From Cladocopium goreaui (Eukaryota; Sar; Dinophyceae; Suessiales; Symbiodiniaceae), in assembly GCA_947184155.2 (NCBI GenBank), contig CAMXCT020003429.1, positions 1 to 64,000 on the forward strand: a DNA stretch of 64,000 nt, in the 5' to 3' direction. A model generated the notes under the pieces. It was not told where the DNA came from. It did no database searches and worked only from the letters and a program-made list of their open reading frames with translations. This document shows, piece after piece, positions 1-16,000 of this stretch (its first letter is position 1; each line of letters opens with the position of its first letter). The translations under genes were made by a program, and so were the position numbers.

Positions 1-56
1 GTGTGTGTGTATATGTATATGTATATGTATATACCCATGCATTGAGTTTGGCAGGC
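1..56. repeat. GT and TATG microsatellite
   Basis: Runs of GT followed by repeats of TATATG. The tract lies just outside the first recognisable structure of the DIRS-like element and is of the same AT-rich alternating type as the tract at 9672-9754 beyond the other end of the element. Confidence 0.8.
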
Positions 57-87
57 TTGGGTGTGCATGTATCATCTTTAAGTGTTT

Positions 88-142
88 CAATGAATGCTAC
101 CATTTTGGCTCAAGTAAACTTGAACCAAAATAGCATTCATTG
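88..142. repeat. long palindrome containing a spliced-leader-like sequence
   Basis: Positions 88-115 pair with 118-142: 24 of 25 right-arm bases match, the left arm has a three-base insertion, and the loop is two A. The left arm contains CCATTTTGGCTCAAG at 100-114, identical to the last 15 bases of the 22-nt dinoflagellate spliced leader; the first seven leader bases are mostly not conserved. Relict leaders in dinoflagellate DNA are known to come from reverse-transcribed trans-spliced mRNAs. That this marks the 5' end of an element transcript is inference. Confidence 0.7.
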
Positions 143-208
143 CTGTTTTCTTTCTTGGTCTTGGTAAGGGGTGACCTTTCCAGACCTTGATTGGGTGGTT
201 CAAATTAT

Positions 209-229
209 ATACAAGGGGCGACCTTGTAT
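209..229 (+). promoter_or_regulatory. GGCGA hairpin at the ORF1 start codon
   Basis: A perfect 8-bp stem (209-216 with 222-229) and loop GGCGA. The last two stem bases are the A and T of the first in-frame ATG of ORF1 (228-230), so folding in RNA would cover the start codon. A translational role is inference. Confidence 0.55.
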
Positions 230-1064
230 GCAGCGCAAACTCCCAGGAATCGATATCCCGCCAGCCACTGAGGCGAAGATCCTTCATGCTGCTGCTTTCC
301 TGGAGTTCAAGAGCCACGTGGAAAGGCTGGCGCGGGAGGGCTCTGATGCTGCAGCATACACATGCTGGATGCATGGTATCGAAGTGTTGCATTCCCCCTA
401 CGTCATCACGACTGGGACAGATTCAGAACTTTTCCCCCCTCTGCCGAAGCTACCCTGTTGCCTTGATGACTGCCAGCGTTGCGCAGCTCATGTGGGGGGG
501 TTCAAGTTCCCGTGGCTCGGCTTGTGGAACAGCCGTGGCGTTGTGTTGCCCGACGATGTGGCGCCTGCGGATGCTTGGGCGTACTACTACCAGCATCAGG
601 ACCCAATGGACCTGCTGCTGGTCGCCGCCTACTCGAAGCTCAAAGTGGCCGCTGACATCGTGCCCCAGGATCTCTACGGGTTGCAGCTCAGGTGCTCAGC
701 GGGCGACGCTGGGCAACTGGGCTTGGGGGAGCTGTTCGACCAATGGAGGAGCTGGCTCAGATGCACAGGCCCTCACGAGCTCCTGCCGGTCTTCCTCGAG
801 CCGCGGCATTTCCCCAGAGCACCTAGGGGGCGACCCTGGGTGGCCTGGGGGAGAGACGGCACCAGGGCACATCGAGCGCTATGTGGATGGCTGGAATGCC
901 AGGACACAGGCATGCTTCAGCTGGGCACCGCCTGCACAGAGTGCGGAGACCCCACCAGGCGCGTGTGCTGGGCATGCTGCGTTGGGATGTGTAGCGACTG
1001 CTTCACCTGGCGTGAGCCATGCAGCACTTGTGGAGGACGTAAGAAGATGTTTGCTGCAGGTTGA
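228..1064 (+). CDS. DIRS-like element ORF1, Cys-rich protein of unknown function
   Basis: A 278-residue ORF from ATG 228; the frame is also open upstream to GTG 171, but no ATG lies there. The N-terminal part is soluble and featureless to me. A central Cys cluster (CCLDDCQRC) and a C-terminal run of closely spaced CxxC pairs (CTEC, CWAC, CSDC, CSTC) look like a zinc-binding or RING-like domain. Four GGYGA hairpins lie in or at the edge of the frame and are read in frame as short Gly-rich patches such as KGRP and RGRPW. It stops at 1064, four bases before the ATG of the recombinase ORF, so coupled termination-reinitiation is possible. The overlapping +1 frame is open over the same stretch but gives Ser/Arg-rich, less protein-like sequence. 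No family recognised. Confidence 0.65.
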   Translation: MQRKLPGIDIPPATEAKILHAAAFLEFKSHVERLAREGSDAAAYTCWMHGIEVLHSPYVITTGTDSELFPPLPKLPCCLDDCQRCAAHVGGFKFPWLGLWNSRGVVLPDDVAPADAWAYYYQHQDPMDLLLVAAYSKLKVAADIVPQDLYGLQLRCSAGDAGQLGLGELFDQWRSWLRCTGPHELLPVFLEPRHFPRAPRGRPWVAWGRDGTRAHRALCGWLECQDTGMLQLGTACTECGDPTRRVCWACCVGMCSDCFTWREPCSTCGGRKKMFAAG

Positions 1065-1068
1065 TTTT

Positions 1069-3540
1069 ATGACAGAGGAGGCACCTCTGAAGTCACCGCA
1101 GCATCTTATTGCTCTCCGCACCTTAGCAATCTTGTTAGGGTGCAGCGCCATGGCATCAGGCGGCAAAGGCTACTATGCAGCGCAAGCGGCAGCCTCGTCC
1201 TCGTCAGGGGGTGACCCTGAACCGGGATGGAGAGCAGCCGACTCCTTGATGGTGATAGCTGCACAGCGGGCGCGTCAATGGAGGGAGAATGAAGGCCTCC
1301 TGGACGACAACGACTTCGCCTATGCCTACACCGACTACGATCAAGTCGTTGGATTAGCTGGCCATCACGTAGCGGATGACTGGCTGCAGACAAGAGCAAG
1401 GGTGGAAGAGCACCTCCTTGCTGCTGGGGCCAAAGTCGTGGAGGACAACCCCAAGGGTTCCGTCACTCTGCGCCCTGTGCGCAAGACAATCTACAAGAAA
1501 AAGCCCAAGGCCGTCAACGTCACCAAGAACCTGGATGAGGCCGTCCAAAAGCGGGTGAACGGCTTGGTGTCGATGTTTGTCGGAATGGGCGCATACAAAC
1601 CAGCTGGCATCTTGACAGACACCCTCAAGGCCGAATGGAAACAAACGTGCAAGAGGATCGCCGAGAAGAAGGTGAAGGACGCGGAGAAGGCGACCATCGA
1701 CCGAGTGGTCAACACCTGGTTGGAGCTGAGGGCCTTCTTGGAGAGTAGGGGGCGACCCGCTCCTCCTGGAATGGTCGACCTGGATCAGTTCCTCAACCAC
1801 ACCCAGGCGCCAGCACGAGCACTCCAAGCCTTGAAATGGATGAACAAGAATGCCGACCAAGACATGGAGCTGGGAAACTTGCAAGTGCCTACAACACCCA
1901 GGGCGACTGGGCAGCGTGGGCAAGCACCGGTGGTGGAGCCGCCATTAGTGCAGGCCTTGGAGGACCGCATCACGGAGTTGCACGCGGTCGGCGATGAGAG
2001 GTGGTCAGTTCTTCTGGCTCCTTGGATCATGTCGTTTGGCTGTTTGAGGTATGCGCACATTGCGCGGTCAGAACCTCGGCGCCTCACCGCTGCATTCCTC
2101 CATTGCAGGTGCCCTAAAGGAAAACAAAAGCATGCCCGCGAAGGTTTCGACTTTGCGGTGCCGGCCACATTCGCCAACGGCTTCTTTTGGGCCAAGGAAG
2201 TGCTGGAGGCATACAGGACGCTGGCACCAGCAAGGCAGAGACTTGCAGGCCTTTGTTTTTCGGACGAAGGGCGCCCATGGACGATCCTAGAAGTGCAAGA
2301 GACGATGCAACAGGAAATGTCCGTGTTCCTCGACAATCCAGAAGATCTGACCACCTACAGCTGGAGGAGGCTTGCACCCACGGTGGCCCAGTTGTTAGGA
2401 TGCAGGCCTGAAGAAATGGCAGCCCTGGGCGACTGGCAAAACAAGAGTGAGCAACCAGAGGTGGGGGCGATGGCATTTCACTATTCTTCGGCAAAATACG
2501 CCGCGTCGGTCAAGGTGAAATCCCTGATCTGGGGCGCTACGGCCAAGCTCGCTAGCAACCTGCTGTGGGAGGCGATCCCGCAGGCAGAGCTAGATGCAGC
2601 CCGAGCTCATGGCCTTACTGAAGCTGACAGGTTGCTGCGACAAGACCGCCAACCTATTTGGGCCTCTGCACATAGCTTCCAGGACGTGAAGAAGAGGCTC
2701 AAGTTGTCACAGCAGTTTGTTGAAGCGGCACAGCAAGCCCGGCAAGAGGCCGAAGCCGCACCGGCACCTCAGATGCCTGATCAACTCAATGGCAAGGTGC
2801 TGACGGCCACTTTGAAGAATGGCAAGGCCATTTGCCCGGAGTTCCAGAAGGACGAGTGCCCGAATCCGGCAGACTCCTGCCCCTTCGGAGTGCACTTGTG
2901 TGCCATTCTACAAAAGTCAGGACGGGCATGTGGTGGCAAGCACGGTGCAGGCGTCTGCAACATCAAGCGGGCGGTGTTGGCCGCAACAGCAGTGCCAGCG
3001 GCACCCAAGCCATCGGCCACCTTGGTGCCGGCAGCCGTGGGGGAGAAGGCCACTTTTGGCCGGAAGAGGACCGCGGCGAGCGGTGCCACTGACGACGAGA
3101 TGGCCGAGGTGATGCGCGCAGCTGTCAAGAAAGCCCGAGGTCAGGCTGCACCCAAGACTCCGCCCAAGGCGCCAGCCATTGCAGCCCCCAAGACACCTCC
3201 GAAGGCTGCAGCCACTACACCTAAGCCACCGGCCACAGCTGCGAAGGCCAGGGCTACAACCACAACGCCGAAGCGCTTGGCCGCTCCTGGGAAGCCACAG
3301 ATCAAGGCCATGCCAAAGAAAGGCCATGGCAAGGCAGCAGGAGACACCTTGGACCTCCACTTGGAGCGGTTGGGTGTGGGCTCAGGGACAGCCCAGGCCC
3401 CGACTTGCATCTGGACATCCCGGAAGGGTGGTGGCATCTACCTGGCAGGACTTCCAATGAGGCAGACGGTGGACAAGTTCCCCAAGACAGCGTTGCAGAT
3501 CTGCTGCTTCCCGAATGGTCCTGAGAGCCGGGGGGGGTGA
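1069..3540 (+). CDS. tyrosine recombinase with CCCH-type tail and start of a phosphatase-like domain
   Basis: An 823-residue ORF from ATG 1069 (a second ATG is at 1150). Residues about 290-480 look like a tyrosine recombinase catalytic domain: first Arg about R327 (CLRYAHIARS), a basic KGKQK patch, box II as Y430-S-W-R433-R with Tyr in the usual His position, then GDWQNK and the C-terminal tyrosine region FHYSSAKY (Y472 or Y477). Such enzymes insert DIRS, Ngaro and Crypton elements through a circular intermediate. Near residue 590 follows a Cys/His module (C-x7-C-x6-C-x4-H then C-x9-C-x3-H-x4-C), then a Lys/Pro/Ala-rich linker. The last 50 residues include GIYLAGLP and ALQICCF, which read as the first strands of a dual-specificity phosphatase whose active site is in the -1 frame (next entry). 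The stop TGA 3538-3540 is the loop of a GGTGA hairpin. Confidence 0.8.
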   Translation: MTEEAPLKSPQHLIALRTLAILLGCSAMASGGKGYYAAQAAASSSSGGDPEPGWRAADSLMVIAAQRARQWRENEGLLDDNDFAYAYTDYDQVVGLAGHHVADDWLQTRARVEEHLLAAGAKVVEDNPKGSVTLRPVRKTIYKKKPKAVNVTKNLDEAVQKRVNGLVSMFVGMGAYKPAGILTDTLKAEWKQTCKRIAEKKVKDAEKATIDRVVNTWLELRAFLESRGRPAPPGMVDLDQFLNHTQAPARALQALKWMNKNADQDMELGNLQVPTTPRATGQRGQAPVVEPPLVQALEDRITELHAVGDERWSVLLAPWIMSFGCLRYAHIARSEPRRLTAAFLHCRCPKGKQKHAREGFDFAVPATFANGFFWAKEVLEAYRTLAPARQRLAGLCFSDEGRPWTILEVQETMQQEMSVFLDNPEDLTTYSWRRLAPTVAQLLGCRPEEMAALGDWQNKSEQPEVGAMAFHYSSAKYAASVKVKSLIWGATAKLASNLLWEAIPQAELDAARAHGLTEADRLLRQDRQPIWASAHSFQDVKKRLKLSQQFVEAAQQARQEAEAAPAPQMPDQLNGKVLTATLKNGKAICPEFQKDECPNPADSCPFGVHLCAILQKSGRACGGKHGAGVCNIKRAVLAATAVPAAPKPSATLVPAAVGEKATFGRKRTAASGATDDEMAEVMRAAVKKARGQAAPKTPPKAPAIAAPKTPPKAAATTPKPPATAAKARATTTTPKRLAAPGKPQIKAMPKKGHGKAAGDTLDLHLERLGVGSGTAQAPTCIWTSRKGGGIYLAGLPMRQTVDKFPKTALQICCFPNGPESRGG

Positions 3541-3557
3541 CCCTCCCGGGAGCTCAG
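3521..3557 (+). promoter_or_regulatory. candidate -1 frameshift site: G8 run plus GGTGA hairpin
   Basis: The YR frame reads cgg ggg ggg tga across a run of eight G (3530-3537). G GGG GGG fits the X XXY YYZ slippery pattern. The same bases form an imperfect hairpin (3521-3535 with 3541-3557, CTGAG pairing with CTCAG at the base) with loop GGTGA. Slipping back one base avoids the TGA and enters the frame with the phosphatase HC-x5-R loop. A one-base homopolymer error would give the same picture. Confidence 0.5.
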
Positions 3558-4079
3558 TTGATGACCTTCGCGGCGGCATACAGCCAGGAACGCAACGAAC
3601 AGTGGACAGACGTGTGGCCGGCCGTCAAGAACACTGTTTGGCACGGCGACAACGTCGTGGTGCACTGCATCAAGGGGCGACACCGGGGTGCTTTCTTAGG
3701 CATCCTCTGCCGCGCATTGCTGGCCAGTGAGTCCATTGAGGATGCCAACCACTACGTAGAGAGCCGCAGGGATACAGAGCTGAACAAGGTCATTCGCGAC
3801 CAAGGCATGCGGAAGTGGCTGCACAAGACCTTCCAGGACACCGCGGTGGGAACACAGCACCCCGAGCCGCAGGGATATGCAGCTACGGAGAGGTCCAGCA
3901 CCCATGTCACGGTCGAGGACGGCATCACCTTGTGCCAGCACAAGCAGGCCGATGGGAAGGCGAAGCGCCTGGTGAACCCATACATGTCCACGGACGTCTT
4001 TGAAGCTCTGGCATGGGAGCGCCCCTGGTGTGACCAGTGCCTCCGTCGAGCGCCAGCGTCATGGTGGCCGCCTGCCTAA
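3537..4079 (+). CDS. dual-specificity-phosphatase-like domain, -1 frame extension of the recombinase
   Basis: About 180 codons in the frame one base back from the YR ORF, ending at TAA 4077-4079. It has VVVHCIKGRHRGAFLG: catalytic-type Cys codon 3666-3668 and Arg codon 3684-3686, i.e. HC-x5-R, the P-loop of Cys-based protein/lipid phosphatases, preceded by a hydrophobic strand and followed by a helix. The earlier strands of that fold (GIYLAGLP, ALQICCF) are encoded just upstream in the YR frame, so the domain makes sense only if both frames are joined. There is no good ATG before the motif; the frame begins with GTG inside the G run. No general-acid Asp loop is obvious, so activity is uncertain. 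A phosphatase domain in a YR retrotransposon is not something I know of. Confidence 0.6.
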   Translation: MTLPGAQLMTFAAAYSQERNEQWTDVWPAVKNTVWHGDNVVVHCIKGRHRGAFLGILCRALLASESIEDANHYVESRRDTELNKVIRDQGMRKWLHKTFQDTAVGTQHPEPQGYAATERSSTHVTVEDGITLCQHKQADGKAKRLVNPYMSTDVFEALAWERPWCDQCLRRAPASWWPPA

Positions 4080-4600
4080 GATGCCCAAGCCGAATCTTTG
4101 GCCTTTGCGCTGATCAGCAGCACTGGCCCGTTCCGGCCATGGAGAGCCGAATTCATCAGCTCGGGGCTTGGATAAGAGCTTCAATCCAGCCTGCATGACC
4201 GCCCCCAGCAGTAACATCATGCGCGAGAGGAAAATAGTAGAGCCAGGTGACTTTCAGTGGGGTGCCCACTGAGCAAGTGCCGTGCCCTCATGTCCTTTCG
4301 TTGTGTTTTTCAAGTTTTTCTTTTCATGACAACGCACAAGACCATCTGGGAGGGGGACCTCAGATAGTCTAGTGTACCATAGCTCTGTGGCGGCATGAAG
4401 GTGATGTCATGTGAGGTCGCAACATAGCTGTGCGTTGTACACATGTCCAGATTTCACATCAGTGTATGTCAGGGTCCATTTATTTCATGCCACGCCAGGC
4501 TGTTCCAGCACAACGCACGGGGGAGACCCGAGGCGCAGTTTTCAGTCAAAGGGAGGGGATCCCTGGGCCTTAGCTAGAGGGGTGTCCTCGAGAATAGGCC
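4080..4600 (+). other. 521-base inter-ORF spacer of the DIRS-like element
   Basis: No ORF of note. It contains several short hairpins related to the GGYGA set: 4254-4272 (TCAGTGG/CCACTGA, loop GGTGC), a bulged one at 4344-4365, 4518-4530 (loop GGAGA) and 4577-4589 (loop GGTGT) just before the ATG at 4601. It may be a leader or internal promoter for the downstream ORFs, but no promoter motif is clear. Confidence 0.5.
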
Positions 4601-5800
4601 ATGGAGACTGATAAAGTCCCACTGGAAAAGGGTTCCCCAGAGGAAATCCTAAGGAAGTTGGGTGACAACTTCTCGTTGGATGATGGGGTAATTACAGCCC
4701 TGCTCCGGTTGGGCGTCGAAAGTTTGCAAGAGTTTCGTTTCCTCTGGGCATCAGAGCAAGCCATTGAGCCCTGGGTTGCTAAGCTGGGCCTGGGGGATAA
4801 GGCACTGCTGATGACGGCTCGAGTCCGCAGAGCATGGGCCGCAGTGGGACTCTACTATCGTCAGGTGGAGCAGGATCGATCCAAGATTGCACGGTCGGAC
4901 TTGGACACCATGCTTGGGGAGACCGAGCTGCGCGACACCAAGCAGCAGTTTTGGAGACGCTACAAGATGCGCTTCCCCCCAGAGATCCATCCAGCAGATA
5001 CCACCATCTCCAGAGTCGCCAGAGAGATGCAGAAGCGCATGCTTTGCGTGTACAACATATGGAGAGTGAAAACCCTTCAATTCCAGCTCACTACATCGCA
5101 GAAGAAGCGCAAACTCAGCGAAGGACTGTTCTTGGAAGATGGCGACGATGAGGAGGTGGTTACCCATGATGTCGACAACTACCTGGACAGGTTGTTCACC
5201 CTGATGTTGGCTTATGCCATGGCAGGGTGCTCTGGGGTGACCGGAGCACCAGATGCCGCGCAAGAGCTCAACTTAGGAGCCGATACAGTCAAGTTTGTCA
5301 ACGTCCCCATGGACATCGTCTACAAGTACTACTTCAGAGCCAAGCGCAGTGTGGCAGGTTTGCCTACATCACGGCGCATGCAATGGCTCCAGGCCAAAGA
5401 CGTGGAGGAACGCAGTGAGTGGGTGTCCAAATTTCGTGAGTCTACGATGAGCTTGGGACAGGTGATCAGCGAGATCTACACGTCCAGGGACGCACATTGG
5501 TCTGCACCAGGGCCCGCTACCCCGGACAGGAAGAGTGCAGCCCCCACCGCAGCCTCTACTGCAAGTCCATCTAAGGTGCCGCCAAGCATATCACCCTTGA
5601 AGTTGGGCAAGCCGATCAATGGCAAACCCGTGGCGACGGCAATGAAGGATGGTACCAAACTTTGCCCGCAATTTCAACGAGGCGGCTGTAAGGCCAAACC
5701 ATGTCCTCAGGGAGCCCATCGATGCGGAGCAGTTGTCAGGAAAGATCGGGTATGTGGAGCGTTCAACCACGGTGCAGCCAATTGCACTGGTAAGCGTTGA
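4601..5800 (+). CDS. gag-like protein with CCCH-type zinc module
   Basis: A 399-residue ORF from ATG 4601. The helical N-terminal two thirds (several amphipathic stretches, a KKRK patch near residue 168 followed by an acidic DGDDEE patch) would fit a capsid-like domain, but I recognise no family. A Ser/Pro/Ala-rich linker (about 305-340) leads to a C-terminal module: C-x7-C-x4-C-x4-H, then C-x9-C-x4-H-x4-C. The same two-part module, with the same lead-in NGK-x5-K-x-G/NGK, ends the recombinase region of the YR ORF. Position between YR and RT and the nucleic-acid-binding tail suggest Gag. It contains GGYGA hairpins at 4654-4672 and 5226-5250. Confidence 0.65.
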   Translation: METDKVPLEKGSPEEILRKLGDNFSLDDGVITALLRLGVESLQEFRFLWASEQAIEPWVAKLGLGDKALLMTARVRRAWAAVGLYYRQVEQDRSKIARSDLDTMLGETELRDTKQQFWRRYKMRFPPEIHPADTTISRVAREMQKRMLCVYNIWRVKTLQFQLTTSQKKRKLSEGLFLEDGDDEEVVTHDVDNYLDRLFTLMLAYAMAGCSGVTGAPDAAQELNLGADTVKFVNVPMDIVYKYYFRAKRSVAGLPTSRRMQWLQAKDVEERSEWVSKFRESTMSLGQVISEIYTSRDAHWSAPGPATPDRKSAAPTAASTASPSKVPPSISPLKLGKPINGKPVATAMKDGTKLCPQFQRGGCKAKPCPQGAHRCGAVVRKDRVCGAFNHGAANCTGKR

Positions 5801-5855
5801 CACGCCCCAGAAGAGGAGGCGGCTGCCTCTTTTGGGTCAGATGAGCTAGAGCCGC

Positions 5856-5872
5856 AAGAGGGGCGACCTCTT
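5856..5872 (+). promoter_or_regulatory. GGCGA hairpin abutting the RT ORF start codon
   Basis: Perfect 6-bp stem AAGAGG/CCTCTT with loop GGCGA; its last base, 5872, directly precedes ATG 5873. With the hairpin at the ORF1 ATG this is the second start codon touched by the family, which points to translation control or RNA binding. This is inference. Confidence 0.5.
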
Positions 5873-8800
5873 ATGGCAGATCTCATGGCAGGTCCCAACG
5901 CACCCCTCACCAAAGCATTCATCAGTTGCGGGTGGCAATGCATTACAGTGGATTGGTTGTTGGATGACAGCCATGACCTGTCAGATGAGCGCCGGCAACA
6001 CTCCCTGAGCAAACAGCTTGAAGAGGTGATCTTCATAGCGGCAGCTATCGACTGTTCGACAAAGAGCAGGGCCAGGGAGATCCCCAGGAAGTTTGAAGAC
6101 GGGCGGCCAGCCCCTGGTCCTCTTCGATCCGAGGTCTACCCTGATGGCCTGCCTCACCTCAACAGCCGGGATGCCCAAAGAGTCGACCTTGACAACAAAG
6201 CCTGCAACTATGTCTTGGGAGAAATTCAGAAGTTGCGGGATAGGGGGGGAGGCAGTGTGCGTGAAAACCCTGCCCGCTCCTTGCACTGGTGGACGTCCAC
6301 AGAGGTGACCATGTGGGAATCGGGACAATGGTTCGACACAGCCTACGCGGCATGTACGTTGGGTGGGGCGCGTTGCAAGCATCAAGTGCTACGACACAAT
6401 GTGGAGGAGATCCAACGCTGGCCCCCAGCCAATTGCCACCATGTGCACGACCCACAGGAATGGACCCCCTACACCTCCGACGGCCAGCGGTTCTACCCAT
6501 CCAAAGAAGAGGCAGAGTACACAGCAGTCCTTGCCTTTGCCATTGCAGTGTCGGCTAGTTGGTGGGCAGTCCGCACAGGTCTAGCCGTCCTGCATGTCCC
6601 ACGCATGCCCACGTTCATGTCAGTCGGACGCCGTGAACATTGGCTGGATATGGACCCGCGCGCAATGCGGGAGTGGGCAATGGCACCACTGGCGGTGACG
6701 CTGGGCCTCACAGAATCCTTGAGGGCTGAACGATCGGGGTTACCGGTCCGAAGGCTCGTCAAGGAGGTGATGATCGAGAACAACAAGCTACCACGCAAGA
6801 CCATCTACGTCGGCCGAGGCAGCTTTCATCATCGCCTATCGACGACCAAGTGGAAATCGCCATGGACACCGGGCCACAACTGCGAAGCCGGTGAATGGCC
6901 GGCCAGGTACATTGTCCATATTCGAACATCACCTTTGTGGGACGCCTTGCATGAGCTTAGCAATATGGAGCTGGCGTGCGACTGCCCCATGGAGCACCTG
7001 TGCGAAGCGGACATGCTCATTGGCCTCTTCTTCGATGCCACCGCCCCTGGGGGTGACCCAATGCAGCGGGGCACCGATGGCCGATGGAGTAGGACTGTGG
7101 CATTGTTGCAAGGGATCCAGGCTATTCCCAGGGGGGTAGCCCTACCCATGATGAGCCAAGAAGCACTGGTATTGGCATTCCAAAAGCTTTTCCCCGAGCA
7201 CTGGTTCAAGAACTACAAGTTTGCAATGATTGAAGACCTCATCAACAGCCCGCCCTTCTGCTCATATGCCACTTGGCTTGCAGAGCGAGGAGAAGCTTGG
7301 GACGGGCCCCTAGTCCCGCATCTGGCTGCCGGGTCAGTGAGGCAGCTTGCACGGATTGGGGACGGGTGCCAAGTGGGTGCGATGACACACCGTGCCGCTT
7401 TGCCCCCACTGCTGCCGTTCAACTTGGATCCTGAGGACCACTTCAACCAAGCAGTCCAACGAGCCCAGCACCCGTTGCCCTACGAAGACCTCCCAGTCGT
7501 CGACTTAGACCTGGAGTTCGTAGCAGATGCCTATGTGGCACATGGCCAGCAGTTGCGCACGTGGCGACAGCAGGCAGTCGGGGCCATGCGAGAGCTGAAG
7601 AGACGCTGGGAGGGGGTGACCCGCCACTTGCGATCCTTCCAAGAGCCGGCCATCCAGCAGGTAACACGGCACCGCGATGTGGGGCTCATCGCATTGCTGA
7701 TGCTGCTGACATCATGGGCAGACACCAGCTTTCCCTATGGTCTGATCCGTGGGCTGCCTGCAGTGGGCTACGCACCACCTTATGGGATCTTCCCCCAACA
7801 GCCAGCTGAGGTGATCAGCATGGCAGATGTGTTGGAGGGATGGCAGGAACACAATCAGCACATCTTGGGCCAGCTGAGAGCAGGCAAGGATGATGAGTTC
7901 CTCCTGCAGCAGTCATTGGAGGACGCAGCGAATGGTTTCTGCACCGAGCCCTTGCGACGGACAGATTTCCTGCGGGCCATTGGCAACAAGGCCCATCGAT
8001 TGATCCCGCGTTGCGTGATCACACAGAGCTCAGGCAAGCAGCGTGTGATCGACAATGGGGACACCGGAGGACAATCAGCCTTGTCATCTGATGCTAACAA
8101 GCTCACATTGTGCAGTCCATTGCGTCCTGCCCAGCACATTCGCCTTGCAATGCATCGTTGGACAGAGGATGAGATGGCCGATTTCTTCGCGAACGATGCC
8201 TGGGAAACAGGACAAGAAGATCTGCCTTCAGCATACAGGTATTGCCCTATGGCATTGCAGGAAAGTCTGGGCTGCGTGGTGGTGTGGTACCATCACGAAT
8301 GGCAAACCCCTGCATACCAAGTCTACGCTGGGCTACTCTTCGGACTGCCGCTGGCGGTTACATCATTCAACCGTTTTTCCAGACTATTGGAGGCACTAGC
8401 CAGGCGTTTTTGCCGAGTTTTGACATCCCTGTACTTTGATGATGCGACCATTACAGACTTGCAATCCTCAAAAGGGTCAGGCCAATGGGCCATGAATCAA
8501 TTGTGTTCTCTTATCGGCTCCCCCTTCGCAGAGGACAAGAAACAACCAATGCAGAGCACCGGAACCTTTTTGGGATTGACTCATGATCTCAGCTCCATCA
8601 ACCAAACAGGGCATGTACAGTTTTGGGCTCGAGAACGGCTCCATGACAAAGTACGTGACATGTTGGCAACAGCCAGGGTGACTGGCCATTTTAGCCGAGG
8701 GGCAGCATCGAAGCTGTACGGCTTGGCCAATTTCCTGGAACAGGGAATCTACGGTCGAGTGGGATATGGCGGCCTCATGGCCATCAAAGCCAGGCAAGAC

Positions 8801-9442
8801 GAGACAACCTCGACCATCACTCCCGAGATTGAAGCATGCTTCGAGGTGATCGAAGCGGTTATGCGCTTTCAGCCAAAGCGGGAATTTCCCGTTCTGCACC
8901 TGGATCATCTGCGCTTTTTGGCAGCCTCCGACGCAGCTGTCGAAGCAGACAATCCTGGTTCAGGAGGTTTTCATCTGATCTTTTTCCAGCCTGACGGATC
9001 ACAAATTCGTCACAGTTTTGTCGCGACCAACTGTGCAGAGCTCCGAACACTTTGGCAACCTGCAGAGACGCATATCGCCCAATTGGAACTATCTATGGTG
9101 CTCTACGCCCTTGTCGAAAGGCCTGATCTGTTTCGAAACCGACACGGCCTATGGTTTTTGGACAACGTAGCAGCCGTCATGACGCTAGTGAGAGGACGTT
9201 CTAGCAATGCCGACTTAGCGAAGCTAGGTCATTTGATCCATCTAGCTCTGTTTGCACTGCGAGCCCAAGGATATTGGGAGTACGTCCAGAGCAAGAGCAA
9301 CTGGGCTGACGATATCAGCCGACTTGGCGTCAATGATCCATGGTGGCGATGCCATGGTTTTGAATTTTATTCGTCGTACCTCCCTACAATCTTGTTCCAG
9401 CTACCCTTTGCAGCTGTCATTCTCACCTTCGAATACCTTTAG
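5873..9442 (+). CDS. methyltransferase-like / reverse transcriptase / RNase H polyprotein (DIRS type)
   Basis: A 1189-residue ORF. Residues about 10-230 match the layout of the methyltransferase-like domain of DIRS-type elements: a GW-x4-VDW start, AAIDCSTKSRAREIP at 57-71 (the position normally Pro-Cys is Asp60-Cys61), GLPHL, ENPARS-x-HWW and GGARCKH. The reverse transcriptase runs from about 670 to 1000: RLIPRCVITQSSGKQRVID, LLFGLPLAVTSFNR and the catalytic LYFDD with D856-D857. RNase H follows: ASD1020, QLE1072, LD1097-N and NWAD1146. No integrase or protease is present. Together with the YR ORF this supplies cDNA synthesis and integration. Six GGYGA hairpins lie in or next to it. The long open frame and the intact FDD and RNase H acidic residues suggest recent activity. 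Confidence 0.85.
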   Translation: MADLMAGPNAPLTKAFISCGWQCITVDWLLDDSHDLSDERRQHSLSKQLEEVIFIAAAIDCSTKSRAREIPRKFEDGRPAPGPLRSEVYPDGLPHLNSRDAQRVDLDNKACNYVLGEIQKLRDRGGGSVRENPARSLHWWTSTEVTMWESGQWFDTAYAACTLGGARCKHQVLRHNVEEIQRWPPANCHHVHDPQEWTPYTSDGQRFYPSKEEAEYTAVLAFAIAVSASWWAVRTGLAVLHVPRMPTFMSVGRREHWLDMDPRAMREWAMAPLAVTLGLTESLRAERSGLPVRRLVKEVMIENNKLPRKTIYVGRGSFHHRLSTTKWKSPWTPGHNCEAGEWPARYIVHIRTSPLWDALHELSNMELACDCPMEHLCEADMLIGLFFDATAPGGDPMQRGTDGRWSRTVALLQGIQAIPRGVALPMMSQEALVLAFQKLFPEHWFKNYKFAMIEDLINSPPFCSYATWLAERGEAWDGPLVPHLAAGSVRQLARIGDGCQVGAMTHRAALPPLLPFNLDPEDHFNQAVQRAQHPLPYEDLPVVDLDLEFVADAYVAHGQQLRTWRQQAVGAMRELKRRWEGVTRHLRSFQEPAIQQVTRHRDVGLIALLMLLTSWADTSFPYGLIRGLPAVGYAPPYGIFPQQPAEVISMADVLEGWQEHNQHILGQLRAGKDDEFLLQQSLEDAANGFCTEPLRRTDFLRAIGNKAHRLIPRCVITQSSGKQRVIDNGDTGGQSALSSDANKLTLCSPLRPAQHIRLAMHRWTEDEMADFFANDAWETGQEDLPSAYRYCPMALQESLGCVVVWYHHEWQTPAYQVYAGLLFGLPLAVTSFNRFSRLLEALARRFCRVLTSLYFDDATITDLQSSKGSGQWAMNQLCSLIGSPFAEDKKQPMQSTGTFLGLTHDLSSINQTGHVQFWARERLHDKVRDMLATARVTGHFSRGAASKLYGLANFLEQGIYGRVGYGGLMAIKARQDETTSTITPEIEACFEVIEAVMRFQPKREFPVLHLDHLRFLAASDAAVEADNPGSGGFHLIFFQPDGSQIRHSFVATNCAELRTLWQPAETHIAQLELSMVLYALVERPDLFRNRHGLWFLDNVAAVMTLVRGRSSNADLAKLGHLIHLALFALRAQGYWEYVQSKSNWADDISRLGVNDPWWRCHGFEFYSSYLPTILFQLPFAAVILTFEYL

Positions 9443-9671
9443 TGCTTTGGGAATTGAGTGCATTGGGTGATTCCTGCAGAGCAGGTTCCAGCCTGGGTTG
9501 CCAGGCAGCTGACCAGTGGCGAAACTGGTCTGGGGCTATGTACGTGTCACATCGTGACAACCCAAAGCAAACCTGAGGATTGCAGGTGAAATTGACTGAG
9601 CATAGGCATAGCTGTGGAAAAAGAAAGCTGCGGGAGCGCGAGACAGTATCTGTTTCATATGACACTTTGAG

Positions 9672-9722
9672 ATGTATATATATATATGTACGTACGTACG
9701 CACATACATACGCACACACATG

Positions 9723-9753
<31 letters not shown>

Positions 9754-9754
9754 C
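9672..9754. repeat. TA / ACGT microsatellite
   Basis: Alternating TA runs around a TACGTACGTACG core and CACATACATACG repeats. No function inferred. Confidence 0.8.
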
Positions 9755-9874
9755 TGCAAAACCCACATGTGCCAAATTTTTGGCCCCTTACAACCAGCCC
9801 CTTAAAATCAAAGCGCCTTTCTTGCTGTTTTCGCTTGAGCAGAGTGTCTTCAGAAGATCATCCCTTAAGGATGG

Positions 9875-9965
9875 TACCCTCTGGTAAACAAACATAGCTA
9901 TTAAAAATGGTCATTTACAGTTGATTTACCCATAAAAAATGGTGATTTCCCATAGTTATCCAAGT
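9875..9965. repeat. MITE family B, truncated copy
   Basis: Starts TACCCTCTGGTAAAC, then the ATAGCTA...AAAATGG body typical of this family (best copy 43772-43877). The right inverted end is degraded (CCATAGTTATCC). Confidence 0.6.
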
Positions 9966-10239
9966 AGTTTTGTTCCAAGTTATGATTCCGCTACAAATGT
10001 TGGTGCCTGCTATTAGCGCAAGTTGCCAGAGCAATATGAAAAAGGGCAAAGCTGCTTAAGACAAGAAAACCCATGAAGCCAAAAAAAGGTGAAGGGGAAG
10101 CCATGGTCCCAGTGTCAAAGAATTCAGAACAGGATTTTTCAATTTCACTGTGTGCGTTGTGTACGCCCATGGTTTGTGACCCATATCATACCCGAAAAAC
10201 CTTGAACTTTTGAAAGTGGGTGGTTGCCCAATTACGCAT

Positions 10240-10302
10240 AATTACGCCTTTTACACGGCAAATTATGCCTTTTACACGGCAAATTACGGCTTTTACCCCG
10301 CG
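10240..10302. repeat. about 21-bp tandem repeat, three copies
   Basis: Three imperfect copies of AATTACGCCTTTTACACGGC in a row, the third diverged. Non-coding. Confidence 0.7.
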
Positions 10303-10800
10303 AATGACGCCTCTTAAAAGCGTAGGATTTTGACAAGATGAGTAGTTTGTTATACGATAGCTCATGATGCGAGTAGTTGCAGTAGATGATCCGGGATTTG
10401 TGGTCAGCAATTGATCATGCCAGAAACAAACTTGTCATGCGTCTTATCATTTGATGCTAGGCCTATCATGCCATGATAAATGCGTCGTGCCATGAAAAGC
10501 CCTTCACGCGAAGAGAGTATTTGAAATATGATACATACTTTGCGCAACTGCTTCATGCAGTAGCAGCGAATGAGCACAGCTTCACCCGGTAACCAAGGTT
10601 CTCGTTAATTGCTCAGCCTTGCCTCCTGAAACATCTTCGAACTTTATCAGGAAACTGACGTCAAACCTACTAAAAGACATCTATAACTACGTATAATTTA
10701 TAATGATAGAACCCTCCAAAAGTCAAAAAAACGCCCCTTAGATACAAAGGCAGATTATGGCTAAGAGGCTTAAAAACGAGACCCTCAGGAACATGTAGCA

Positions 10801-10838
10801 CACACACACATATATATATATATCTCTCTCTCTCTCTC
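10801..10838. repeat. CA-TA-TC microsatellite
   Basis: Consecutive short runs of CA, TA and TC. Confidence 0.8.
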
Positions 10839-11408
10839 TGTCAATATTGTGAGAGATGCGTATGTACAGTACAGATATGCGTGTGTAGAAAGATTAATTT
10901 AGTGGTTTAATGCTGGCGGCGTATCACAATAACCAACTCAATTCAACCCAACCAAAATCCAAACGACCAAGATAATCACACCTCGAAAAATAGAGGGCCC
11001 CACAATAAACAAACAAATCCAGCACTACTTGGGCTTCCACCACAGAGGCAAATCAACCATCAACCCTCGAACATGTAAGTAAATATGCAGGGTTGGGTAT
11101 CATGGTACAACCACCTAAAATGCATGGTACCATGGCAAATATCACCCCTTGATACCCCTTGCCGATTGGATTATTTGCGAAATCATTTTATTTTGGGAAC
11201 CACCATTTTTTTCCCCAGCCTGGCACGCGATCTGATTGATCTTGATTGGTTATTGGCACATCAGCACTATGACTATGTCCCGAGGTGCGGTCTGTGACTC
11301 TGGAGCAACGCAGCACTTCAAGTTGCTTGGCGATGTCGTGATGTCGTGATGTCGCCATGTCGGAGATTGTGGGGCGACAGAAAATCGCCATTTCAGAAAC
11401 CGATTGAT

Positions 11409-11510
11409 CGGAGCTACTTACCATATGTAAGGCCTATGTAAGGGCTACTTAAGGGGATGTACCCCCAACATATGGATTTATATTATATGGTACAGTACCT
11501 CGATTTTAGG
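11409..11510. repeat. MITE family A, left end degraded
   Basis: Shares ACTTACCATATGTAAGGC and the right end ACAGTACCTCGATTTTAGG with the copies at 17565-17688 and 45174-45284. Confidence 0.6.
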
Positions 11511-13026
11511 ATTTGAGCGTAGATTTTCCCGGAAACCAATCCAACAAATAGGGATTTCTAAGTTTTGTTTGTCCAGTTTCACCTTCTGTAACTAAAGGCG
11601 TGCGAAGTCCTATGCGTCGGGAGCTTGGAAGATCGCAGCAGTGGTCGCCGTTGATCTCTGGCTGCGGATGAGGCACTTCCGGTGCTTGGAAGCTCATTGT
11701 GGGAAGGAGACCCGTTGGACCGAGTGAGTCGAGATTCGCGGGGAAAAAAGACAAGGATGTGCAAAGATATAAGCAAAGATATGTCAGATGAATATAGATG
11801 AATGTTGTTTTTTGCCTGAGTCCTGCGGTTCCATTTGCAACTTGCAACATCTTGCAACTAGTGCTTGTCGCTACTCTGGGCTCTAGCGTGGTGGGTGCAA
11901 GTAGGGAGGAACATTGATCCACAGGGTATCTAAGGAGTTCAGACAGTTTCAACAAACGGCTGAAGAACTTTGAACTTCGAACGCTGACCCGCCGCACCCC
12001 TCGGGTAGAGCGCAATTTTGTGCTAAACAAAATGGCAGGTTTGGGGCCCAGAAGACGGCGACACATATTGAATCCCCAGTCGAAACGGTGGTTCAATACT
12101 CTATTGATTTTGGGGTCTCTTAGTACACTTAAGTCACTTAAGTTAACTTAAGGATCTTAGGGCATGGCAGCATGACTAGAGGCATTTCATTCTGAATTAG
12201 GGGGCGGTCATCGGAGTCATCGGAGTCATCGTGGTATCGGTGTGCGAAACGAAACGCGAGGTCGCGACGGTGCCTTTGCTGGTGCCTGGCAGGATGATGA
12301 GGGCACAGCCATGGTCCAAGATGTTGGATACATTCCAGGGGATTCCAAGAGGGCATTCCACGCCGCTTTTGTATGCTCTTGAAGAGCTTGTATGATCTTG
12401 TGTATTTTGTATTATTTTGTGGCTTTGCACACCTGGCAGTTCATTTTTTTGGCATTCTGGGGGCTGGCAAATTCCCAAGAATTCATCAAATTGCATGGCA
12501 ATTGACTGGATTTGGGGGACACATCAGTTTGATCTTGAGCTGTTGCTCGGCCATGTCACCATGCCCAGGTGGTGGTTGTCAAGGACGACCCAGTGGGCAG
12601 CACTGGGTGCAGCATTTGAATGTTTGCATCGGATGCAGTGGCATGTGGTGTTCTCCTTTTCCTTCCAGGACTCGCGAATGTACGGCCCAGATGGTGGTCA
12701 GTGTCGAAGCTGCAAGATCCCAAACTGGGTTGTTTTTTCTCGTAGGGTGCCCTGCTACAATAGTGGCTCCTTAGAAGAAATATACTGCTGCAGCTCCCTA
12801 TATTTGGATTTGCGACACGATTGAGAACACATTCCATTTGTCATGTGATCCCTGTGAGCTTCTCAGCCCACTGAGCCTGAATGGTAGGCTTGACCTCAAG
12901 ATCACCAGCAGGACAGAATGCTCTTTTCAGATGGGTCTTGGCCTTGGCTTCTGTCCGAGTCAGATGACATGGTTGCTATTTGGGGTGCATTCAAATTTTG
13001 GAACTCTTGGAGGTTCAGTTTCAAAG

Positions 13027-16000
13027 GTCAGACGACGCAGCCAAGGTAGCGAAACGTACCATGGAACTCTCACGGATGGCAAGTTGGTGTGGGATGATGG
13101 TGCTGTGTGGGTCCGAGTCGGTATCTCAGATCAAGGAGGCAGGGAGAGGACGATAAACAGAGAAGAGTCTCCGAATCAGACTTCATAAGGATAACCGGAT
13201 AACCACCGAGGTGGAGAGCGAACATTCACAGCCTCGAACTGCTGAGCAAACCTTGATGCCGCAGACTAACGGCCATAGCCATACTGTTCCGAATGGCAAG
13301 GAACCCGACGCTGCGAGTGACAGAGCCAGGAAGGCCTTCGAAGAGGAAAAGGCTCGCAAGGCAGCTGCTTTGGAGCGTGCCCGAGCTGCAAGGGCTGCTG
13401 CTGCAGAACCAGCAGAACCTCAGCCAGACGCTAAGGCCGCAAGTGAAGCAGGAATCGACAGAGCAAGGAAGGCCTTTGAAGAGGAAAAGGCTCGCAAGGC
13501 AGCTGCCTTGGAGCGTGCCCGAGCTGCAAGGGCTGCTGCTGCAGAACCAGCAGAACCTGAACCAGATGCTAAGGCAGCAAGTGAAGCAGGAATCGACAGA
13601 GCAAGGAAGGCCTTTGAAGAGGAAAAGGCTCGCAAGGCTGCTGCTTTGGAGCGGGCCCGAGCTGCAAGGGCCGCTGCTGCAGAACCAGCAGAACCTGAAC
13701 CAGATGCAAGAGCGGCAAATGAGGAAGGAATCGACAGAGCAAGAAAGGCCTTTGAAGAGGAAAAGGCTCGCAAGGCAGCTGCCTTGGAGCGTGCCCGAGC
13801 TGCAAGGGCTGCTGCTGCAGAACCAGCAGAACCTGAACCAGATGCTAAGGCAGCAAGTGAAGCAGGAATCGACAGAGCAAGGACGGCCTTTGAAGAGGAA
13901 AAGGCTCGCAAGGCCGCTGCTTTGGAACGTGCCCGAGCTGCAAGGGCCGCTGCTGCAGAACCAGCAGAACCTGAACCAGATGCAAGAGCAGCAAATGAGG
14001 AAGGAATCGACAGAGCAAGGAAGGCCTTTGAAGAGGAAAAGGCTCGCAAGGCAGCTGCTTTGGAGCGTGCCCGAGCTGCAAGGAACGCTGCTGCAGAACC
14101 AGCAGAACCTGAACCAGATGCAAGAGCAGCAAATGAGGAAGGAATCGACAGAGCAAGAAAGGCCTTTGAAGAGGAAAAGGCTCGCAAGGCAGCTGCTTTA
14201 GAGCGTGCCCGAGCTGCAAGGGCTGCTGCTGCAGAACCAGCAGACCCCGAACCAGATACAAGAACATCAAATGAGGAAGGAATTGACAGAGCAAGGAAGG
14301 CCTTTGAAGAGGAAAAGGCTCGCAAGGCAGCTGCTTTAGAGCGTGCCCGAGCTGCAAGGGCTGCTGCTGCAGAACCAGCAGAACCTGAACCAAATGCAAG
14401 AACATCAAATGAGGAAGGAATTGACAGAGCAAGGAAGGCCTTTGAAGAGGAGAAGGCTCGCAAAGCAGCTGCCTTGGAGCGTGCCCGAGCTGCAAGGGCT
14501 GCTGCTGCAGAACCAGCAGACCCTGAACCAAATGCAAGAACATCAAATGAGGAAGGAATTGACAGAGCAAGGAAGGCCTTTGAAGAGGAAAAGGGTCGCA
14601 AAGCAGCTGCTTTGGAGCGTGCCCGAGCTGCAAGGGCTGCTGCTGCAGAACCAGCAGAACCTGAACCAGATGCAAGAGCAGCAAATGAGGAAGGAATCGA
14701 CAGAGCAAGAAAGGCCTTTGAAGAGGAAAAGGCTCGCAAGGCAGCTGCTTTGGAGCGTGCCCGAGCTGCAAGGGCCGCTGCCGCAGAACCAGCACAACCT
14801 GAACCAGATGGAAGAGCAGTCAACGAAGCAGGAACGGATAGAGCAAGGAAGGCCTTTGAAGAGGAAAAGGCTCGCAAGGCAGCTGCTTTGGAGCGTGCCC
14901 GAGCTGCAAGGGCAGAACAAGGGAGTGACAATGTGTCTGCAGATTCTGGTGTGGATCGTGCGCGGAAAGCGTTTGAGGAGGAGAAAGCCAGAAAGCAAGC
15001 GGCACTGGAGCGTGCGAGAGCCGCTCGCATGGATGGCCAAAGTCAGCCAGAGGATACCAGAAGTGAGGAAGAGAAAGCAAGAAAGGCAGCTGCCCTTGAA
15101 CGGGCACGGGCTGCCTCTGGGGTTGACAGGGCCCGGAAAGCTTTTGAGGAGGAGAAGGAGCGCAAAGCAGCTGCTTTGGAGAGGGCCAGAAGAGCGAGCA
15201 GCGATGCCTACCCAGGCGCCGACCCTATCATGCAACGTACTATACTAGTGGCACTAATGTATGCAATCTTCCAGTTCCATTTTTCCACAAAGCCTTCCAG
15301 CAGACCAAAGGCATAATTGGACAATTCTCGATGAATCAGCCACGAGGTGGATTACGTAGGGTTGCCTCCCAAGACATTGAAACTAGAGAAGCTGTTTGTG
15401 CCTGTGCCATCAACTGGAATGAGCTCACCCTTCAGAGGTGCAGCCAACGGCACATCCAGATCCGAAGCTGGTCTGGATCGAGCTAAGCAAGCCTTTGAGC
15501 AGGAGAAAGCCAGAAAAGCTGCAGTCCCAAGCTTAGGCCGTTGCGTTTCTGATGAATCCATAGGAAAGACATGCAGTTCCCATGTCTCGTCTCACCACTG
15601 GTTTCATGTGCTAATTCTGAATCCATTTTCGCAAAGCACATTTGGCACATCCATTGCAAGAAATTATCATCCTCGTTGATTGTGCTGTATCTATTTTATT
15701 TCATTTTCATTTATATGCGACTCCTGGACTTGAAGCAACATAGACAGGAACGCCATATTTTCAATGGTCAAGCAAAACGAACGGCAGAACCAAGCCCCCA
15801 CTCATTTTTTCCCGATCAATTTCGTTGATGTCCCCCCCTATGTTTTCGCGGCATTAATGTTTTGCTTTCCCAAGCCACCAGTGAATCCTGCCCCAAAATC
15901 TCTTTAAGATGATAGTTTTCCCGCATCGCCCCCATTCTATTACTGTACATTCCATCCCCATGGTTTCTCATCATTTTCACCAATTAAACCAATAGAAACC

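Follow-up and report, generated by a model that had tools for sequence, protein, structure and literature searches.

The question raised by this locus is why a retrotransposon should carry, all along its length, short hairpins with unrelated stems and one and the same loop. The window, by which we mean the whole 64,000-nucleotide stretch analyzed (positions 1 to 64,000 of contig CAMXCT020003429.1 of the dinoflagellate Cladocopium goreaui, assembly GCA_947184155.2), contains at 33–9676 an element that is a DIRS/PAT-type tyrosine-recombinase retrotransposon. An earlier reading made from the letters alone, called here the sequence-only reading, had described hairpins closing on GGTGA or GGCGA (GGYGA) throughout this element and had offered two ideas: multi-site packaging signals, or folded single strands used in recombination or replication, as with integron attC hairpins.

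GGYGA hairpins in the window element and its close copies

Counts were made on the + strand of 33–9676 with contiguous stems, G–U pairs being allowed unless stated otherwise. GGYGA occurs at 47 sites, more than the roughly 35 estimated earlier, and carries a stem of at least 4 bp at 17 of them, at least 5 bp at 15 and at least 6 bp at 11. Where the sequence-only reading had put the number of stems of 5 to about 13 bp at 17 or higher, strict contiguous counting gives 15, and 17 is reached only at the 4-bp threshold. With Watson–Crick pairs alone, 11 of the 47 sites have stems of at least 5 bp. With G–U allowed, stems of at least 5 bp were found at 15 of the 47 GGYGA sites versus 96 of 9552 positions (1.0%) for other pentamers. 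GGYGA also came first (p = 4.5e-20) in a ranking of loops by the rate at which they cap a stem, a ranking that covered lengths of 3 to 9 letters, exact sequences as well as those with a single degenerate letter, and only loops with three hairpins or more. Against the 15 observed hairpins, 2000 dinucleotide shuffles averaged 0.21 and never exceeded 3, and 300 synonymous-codon shuffles of the five open reading frames (ORFs) averaged 0.79 and never exceeded 4.

In line with the earlier claim, the stems differ: the six-base left arms are 15 different ones among 15 hairpins, and the G–U pairs named at 824/838, 2566/2580 and 5233/5243 are all three present. The closing pair has a 5' purine and a 3' pyrimidine in 14 of the 15. 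The hairpins were also said to lie on the + strand only, and this agrees with the reverse loop, TCRCC, which has 20 sites in the element, none with a stem of at least 3 bp. In five 9.5-kb pieces of the remaining window, 0 of 94 GGYGA sites had a stem of at least 5 bp. A search of Rfam with window 1–12000 gave no match above the gathering threshold.

Conservation was assessed by taking the window's 17 hairpins with stems of at least 4 bp as the reference, the inner stem being five letters per side, and comparing them with four copies, L036, L038, L032 and L037, which are 83–91% identical to the window element; the figures that follow are in this order. Loop letters 1, 2, 4 and 5 were changed at 0/68, 0/68, 3/67 and 4/68, and inner stem letters at 3/166, 3/170, 9/169 and 10/169, versus a whole-element divergence of 11.0%, 8.9%, 17.0% and 16.8% (Fisher p = 8e-9, 8e-7, 5e-8 and 6e-7). 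Loop letter 3, the C or T, changes freely (4, 4, 4 and 6 of 17). Inner stems were kept in 15/16, 17/17, 13/15 and 14/16 GGYGA hairpins, and stems of hairpins with other loops in 41/65, 50/66, 22/64 and 24/65. The pentamer itself was kept at 17, 17, 14 and 15 of the 17 hairpin sites, and at 16 (26 aligned), 20, 19 and 19 of the 30 GGYGA sites outside hairpins. Over the full stems, changed pairs were broken versus kept in 8/3, 6/5, 10/9 and 9/11 cases. Double compensatory changes are rare, and the case for conserved pairing is therefore made mainly by stems that did not change and by single-sided changes after which the two letters still pair.

The same pattern extends to more copies. Fourteen forward-strand loci containing the 3' part of the element plus flank each have between 7 and 9 GGYGA hairpins with stems of 5 bp or longer, and TCRCC hairpins number none in 13 of them and one in L018. 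The noncoding spacer between repeats A2 and B2, which other copies possess, has a GGYGA hairpin, which a scan located in 22 copies: 15 have a stem of 9–10 bp, one of 8 bp, five of 4 bp and one of 1 bp. In that spacer the scan also returned 13 other GGYGA pentamers, all without a stem.

Other loops in sister lineages of the same genome

The genome was searched with six proteins, and the best 38–39 of 4024–4585 candidates were scored per search. Among the scored candidates, four lineages had full-length reverse-transcriptase ORFs: that of the window; L031 (1218 residues) with its 20% diverged relative L040; L033; and L039, whose reverse-transcriptase ORF is about 40% identical to the window's. 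GGYGA hairpins are found at 0 of 25 sites in L031, 0 of 27 in L040, 0 of 31 in L033 and 1 of 18 in L039. When pentaloop rules with two or three set letters were ranked without prior choice, on the + strand with G–U allowed, AG..A (AGNNA) came first for L031 (8/132, p = 9e-7), L040 (12/161, p = 1.4e-10) and L033 (18/164, p = 5e-16). For L039 the best rule was.GAA. (12/168, p = 4e-9), and its loop is probably NGAAN. All four lineage rules have a G as the second loop letter. The fixed loop proposed by the sequence-only reading therefore holds for the window element and is too narrow as a general rule, since in the sister lineages the same design occurs with different loops.

The window element, L031, L033 and L039 were each shuffled 120 times, and no shuffle matched the observed rule strength. 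Hairpins within ORFs numbered 7 in L031, 18 in L033 and 9 in L039, versus synonymous-shuffle means of 0.98, 1.67 and 1.39 and maxima in 300 of 4, 7 and 5, overlapping ORFs being counted twice. The six-base left arms were all different within each of the four elements. The loop rules hardly cross between lineages, though they are not perfectly private: AG..A caps 1/143 in the window element, and GG..A 1/177 in L031, 0/185 in L040 and 1/203 in L033. When L031 was compared with L040, a 5-bp stem was kept in 8 of 9 rule hairpins versus 6 of 30 other hairpins. Their alignment contains one clear compensatory change, C–G to A–T in the sixth, outermost pair at L031:3494, and a T–G to C–G change at L031:3531; the five inner pairs of the rule hairpins show no double change that preserves pairing.

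The positions of the hairpins are mostly not common between lineages, and the ORF4 and ORF5 alignments revealed no clear shared set; three cross-lineage hairpin pairs lie within five alignment columns of each other. The leader has a pair of hairpins 41–47 bases apart in the window element, L031 and L040, with different loops.

A hairpin exists on both DNA strands, so that the orientation of the loop alone does not tell which strand is read. G–U pairs were used as a guide, by counting how many hairpins of at least 5 bp were gained when wobble pairs were allowed on the + strand versus the − strand. The count rose from 11 to 15 (versus 12 on the − strand) in the window element, 12 to 14 (13) in L036, 12 to 15 (12) in L038, 13 to 16 (13) in L032, 12 to 15 (12) in L037, 6 to 9 (8) in L031, 10 to 12 (10) in L040, 11 to 20 (14) in L033 and 6 to 14 (9) in L039. 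The gain was larger on the + strand in 9/9 copies from four lineages, though by a single hairpin in L036 and L031, and the stem length gained through wobble pairs showed no consistent excess on the + strand, being higher there in 4 of the 9 copies, lower in 4 and equal in 1. The reverse-orientation rule gave 0–1 hairpins in each of the 9 copies. In local folding with about 150 nucleotides of context, the inner three pairs had a probability above 0.5 in 11/15 hairpins of the window element, 8/8 of L031, 11/12 of L040, 11/18 of L033 and 7/12 of L039. By the wobble counts, the + strand, that is, the mRNA, is favored as the folded molecule, although it is not proven.

Proposed dispersed RNA signals and the alternatives

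Many sites that may lie anywhere, one loop on variable stems, a single direction and a loop that changes lineage by lineage together point to a protein that accompanies the element and recognizes many sites on it. We consider it fairly probable that the hairpins are RNA signals for an element-encoded protein, resembling multi-site packaging signals, by which the RNA of the element's own family is told from that of others. The + strand RNA would display about 15–20 short hairpins over its full length, with pentaloop letters fixed per lineage. These would be recognized by the element's own RNA-binding protein, most likely the Gag-like ORF4 product with its CCCH-type tail, or a similar tail of the recombinase ORF. 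The ORF4 tail is common to all four lineages, and a pattern search located a similar tail in ORF2 or the next ORF in the window element, L033 and L031, but not in L039. Many weak sites per RNA would allow the protein to accumulate on its own transcript and to assemble a particle or ribonucleoprotein in which reverse transcription could occur, and the lineage-specific loop would let co-resident families distinguish their RNAs. That the reader is encoded by the element is suggested by the loops differing by lineage within one host; with a host reader, the same loop would presumably be favored in every lineage. The least certain part of this proposal is packaging rather than some other step in the life of the RNA.

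The strongest competitor concerns that very part. An element-encoded protein might use the sites to control translation where ORFs start, to recruit or pause the reverse transcriptase, to export the transcript from the nucleus or to protect it, which we consider possible but rather unlikely. Some hairpins do lie at ORF borders or starts (3536 and 4661 in the window; 4749 and 4875 in L031), and the leader holds two in the window element, L031 and L040, but most are inside ORFs and the lineages lack clear common places in the ORF4 and ORF5 alignments, so that a counting or gathering role fits better than control at one spot. Improbable, in our estimate, is a host RNA-binding or RNA-cutting protein, for instance of RNase III type, whose reading of the hairpins the element exploits or tolerates. 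Yeast Rnt1p, an RNase III type enzyme, reads AGNN tetraloops and thus loops with a G at position 2, the letter that all four lineage rules share. Yet a host protein is hard to reconcile with loops that differ among lineages of one genome and hardly cross, or with the lack of GGYGA hairpins in the five stretches of the remaining window, and fifteen conserved cutting sites would presumably be costly in a replicating RNA.

The second idea of the sequence-only reading, folded single-stranded DNA recognized by the tyrosine recombinase in the manner of attC, found no support and now appears very improbable. Single-stranded DNA may occur in the replication of tyrosine-recombinase retrotransposons, and ORF2 has the recombinase fold, but the hairpins are spread all along the coding sequence instead of being confined to the recombining A and B ends, the wobble counts favor the + strand as RNA, and the feature at the ends is a palindrome in A, not GGYGA hairpins. 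As for attC-like location, the hexaloop at 9518 is the only one of the listed hairpins within B. Least credible of all is an origin of the hairpins as remnants of small hairpin-shaped insertions, or as a side effect of codon use or of repeats. It is true that hairpins come and go from copy to copy, and a tandem-repeat stretch can mimic loop enrichment, as in the control stretch described below; against this, there is no indel at 8677 in the subfamily without that hairpin, the left arms all differ, and the synonymous shuffles fall far below the counts (0.79 versus 15 in the window element, 0.98 versus 7 in L031, 1.67 versus 18 in L033 and 1.39 versus 9 in L039). Conservation among copies and these shuffles make such an origin unlikely as the main cause.

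Several observations weigh against recognition of the hairpins as RNA signals by an element-encoded protein. Among changed pairs of the full stems, broken ones exceed kept ones in at least two of the four window-clade comparisons, and no double change kept pairing in any of the four, such changes being nearly absent. Hairpins turn over: those at 8677 and 3075 are missing in an 82% subfamily, and L040 compared with L031 keeps 8/12 rule hairpins versus 10/23 others, a weak contrast that also indicates turnover. The wobble comparison is biased, because the sister rules were found by a + strand scan with G–U allowed, and 4 of the 15 window hairpins were not favored in local folding. The shuffle test alone is insufficient, since ctrl1, one of the two control stretches, likewise exceeded each of its 120 shuffles (p = 8e-8); we ascribe the ctrl1 signal to its tandem-repeat ORF, and in the element hairpins, by contrast, no two left arms are alike. 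For L039, the NGAAN rule comes from one copy, and GAA could be a triloop. Some crossing of rules was seen, with AG..A at 4/143 (0.9 expected) in the window-clade copy L036, GG..A at 4/156 (1.1 expected) in L039 and CG..A at 5/114 in L033. Lastly, the model of the Gag-like ORF4 protein has no informative fold match, which makes its capsid role putative.

On balance, the core of the sequence-only reading stands, namely dispersed, directional, fixed-loop hairpins with conserved pairing, and its packaging idea is the best remaining explanation, with binding as the conjectural step. It is about an even call whether one can go further, to co-resident families that would each have a private loop password, repeated some 10–20 times per RNA and recognized by the family's own Gag-like protein or recombinase tail, with self/non-self sorting and coevolution of loop and reader (GGYGA, AGNNA and NGAAN so far).

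Among characterized hairpins, the HIV-1 SL2 and SL3 loops, which bind nucleocapsid through exposed G residues, are few and lie in the leader. They too are short hairpins with G-rich loops, there bound by Gag zinc knuckles, but the element has many sites along the whole RNA and fingers of CCCH type. The pentaloops of lambda boxB (GNRNA) and Smaug/Vts1 (CNGGN) are likewise five-letter loops on variable stems, and those are read by protein. GGYGA fits neither pattern, having a pyrimidine at position 3 and a G at position 1, and nor does the AGNNA set, which starts with A. The closest analogue appears to be the dispersed packaging signals of RNA viruses. Such signals are described for single-stranded RNA viruses (MS2, picornaviruses) and for the pregenomic RNA of hepatitis B, as many stem-loops across the genome RNA with variable stems and a common short recognition motif (PMC6281560). 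The element has many dispersed stem-loops with one common loop motif as well; it differs in being a retrotransposon, in having a putative reader, and in a loop that is nearly invariant per lineage and changes between lineages of one genome. Dispersed loop signals are thus already known in RNA viruses, and what is new here is that other lineages have their own loops in the same genome. Searches of open-access literature, covered mostly as titles and the starts of abstracts, listed no account of such signals in a retrotransposon, and the choice of their own RNA by DIRS-type elements appears little studied. If true, the proposal would provide a clear natural case of multi-site RNA recognition, with a signal readable from sequence alone and several independent loop alphabets in one genome. 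A harmless, non-viral system would become available for direct tests of how loop and reader coevolve, of cis preference and of the packaging-signal theory for the assembly of RNA viruses, and other retroelements could be screened by a simple sequence test.

Organization of the element

The coordinates of the element, its ORFs and its hairpins are collected in Table 1. Two hallmarks of the DIRS order are the tyrosine recombinase fold of ORF2 and the reverse transcriptase of ORF5, which has 114 homologues, one of which (P0037) carries a precomputed RVT_1 domain. The proteins P0003, P0008, P0044 and P0082 indicate that other dinoflagellate genomes contain relatives. A third is the split direct repeat arrangement A-coding-B-A-B, seen as a B-A-B end in L035 and other copies; the window copy stops after B1 and lacks the A2–B2 end, and in the copies that possess it B1 and B2 are spaced by about 482 bp. 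At 9676 the B1 end of the window copy adjoins a TA-rich microsatellite, where other copies continue with A2, the spacer with its GGYGA hairpin, and B2. The element resembles SymbioDIRS and other DIRS/PAT/Ngaro elements in its tyrosine recombinase and reverse transcriptase ORFs, its A-coding-B-A-B repeats and its dinoflagellate host, and differs from the SymbioDIRS account in that the term hairpin is absent from the main text of that paper (PMC5890265). A Pfam search of the five window ORFs found no methyltransferase domain, which was counted as a difference from SymbioDIRS and other DIRS/PAT/Ngaro elements, and no RNase H family at E ≤ 10, the sequence being divergent.

Table 1. Features of the window element, in window coordinates.
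Feature	Position	Strand	Remark
Retrotransposon copy A1-ORFs-B1	33..9676	+	ends set by comparison with same-genome copies
A1 repeat with internal palindrome (~88-142)	33..150	+	A recurs after B1 in L035, L021, L022
B1 repeat	9464..9676	+	second copy seen in other loci
ORF2, tyrosine recombinase with CCCH-type tail	1060..3540	+	frame open from 175
ORF3, HCx5R motif (HCIKGRHR), phosphatase-like, weak	3525..4079	+	DSPc E 0.062, below Pfam cut-off
ORF4, Gag-like by position; helical, CCCH-type tail	4598..5800	+	model without informative fold match
ORF5, DUF4326 domain and reverse transcriptase	5801..9442	+	DUF4326 E 4.3e-7; RVT_1 E 0.0033, below cut-off
Hairpin GGTGA at 170	166..178	+	4 bp inner stem; 6 bp in L032, L037
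Hairpin GGCGA at 217	208..230	+	9 bp with G-U
Hairpin GGCGA at 702	693..715	+	9 bp with G-U
Hairpin GGCGA at 829	820..842	+	9 bp with G-U
Hairpin GGTGA at 1210	1204..1220	+	6 bp
Weak hairpin GGCGA at 1751	1748..1758	+	3 bp; 4 bp in L032, L036, L037, L038
Hairpin GGCGA at 1902	1897..1911	+	5 bp
Hairpin GGCGA at 2571	2563..2583	+	8 bp with G-U
Hairpin GGCGA at 3075	3070..3084	+	5 bp; sole C-G closure among 15; not among L032, L037 hairpins
Hairpin GGTGA at 3536	3530..3546	+	6 bp; ORF2/ORF3 border
Hairpin GGTGA at 4661	4653..4673	+	8 bp; start of Gag-like ORF
Hairpin GGTGA at 5236	5226..5250	+	10 bp with G-U
Hairpin GGCGA at 5862	5856..5872	+	6 bp
Hairpin GGTGA at 6025	6019..6035	+	6 bp
Hairpin GGTGA at 7052	7048..7060	+	4 bp; 6 bp in L022, L032, L037
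Hairpin GGTGA at 7615	7612..7622	+	3 bp (one change); 6 bp, intact loop in 10/14 forward-strand loci
Hairpin GGTGA at 7810	7805..7819	+	5 bp
Hairpin GGTGA at 8677	8672..8686	+	5 bp; absent without indel in four 82%-subfamily forward-strand loci
Hairpin GGTGA at 8845	8837..8857	+	8 bp
Related hairpin, hexaloop GACCAGT-GGCGAA-ACTGGTC	9511..9530	+	inside repeat B

The long palindrome of repeat A at 88–142, CATTTTGGCTCAAGT...ACTTGAACCAAAATAG, matches itself, and similar inverted repeats occur at the same place in L031 and L033; it is a candidate recombination site. ORF1 (168–1064) has a cysteine-rich C-terminal stretch, overlaps the long ORF2 frame and gave no Pfam match at E ≤ 10. The HCx5R motif of ORF3 we take to be phosphatase-like. 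In the window element it reads HCIKGRHRG; weak, sub-threshold matches to dual-specificity or tyrosine phosphatases were obtained in all four lineages (window, L031, L033 and L039; E 0.045–0.26), and a phosphatase-like gene, perhaps for an RNA 5'-phosphatase, would be unusual in a retrotransposon. The DUF4326 domain is in the N-terminal half of ORF5, in the same frame ahead of the reverse transcriptase, and is also found in many homologues. Outside the element, window 13157–15316 contains a 719-residue tandem-repeat ORF (RARKAFEEEKARKAAALERARAARAAAAEPAEPEPDA), overlain by other long frames on both strands.

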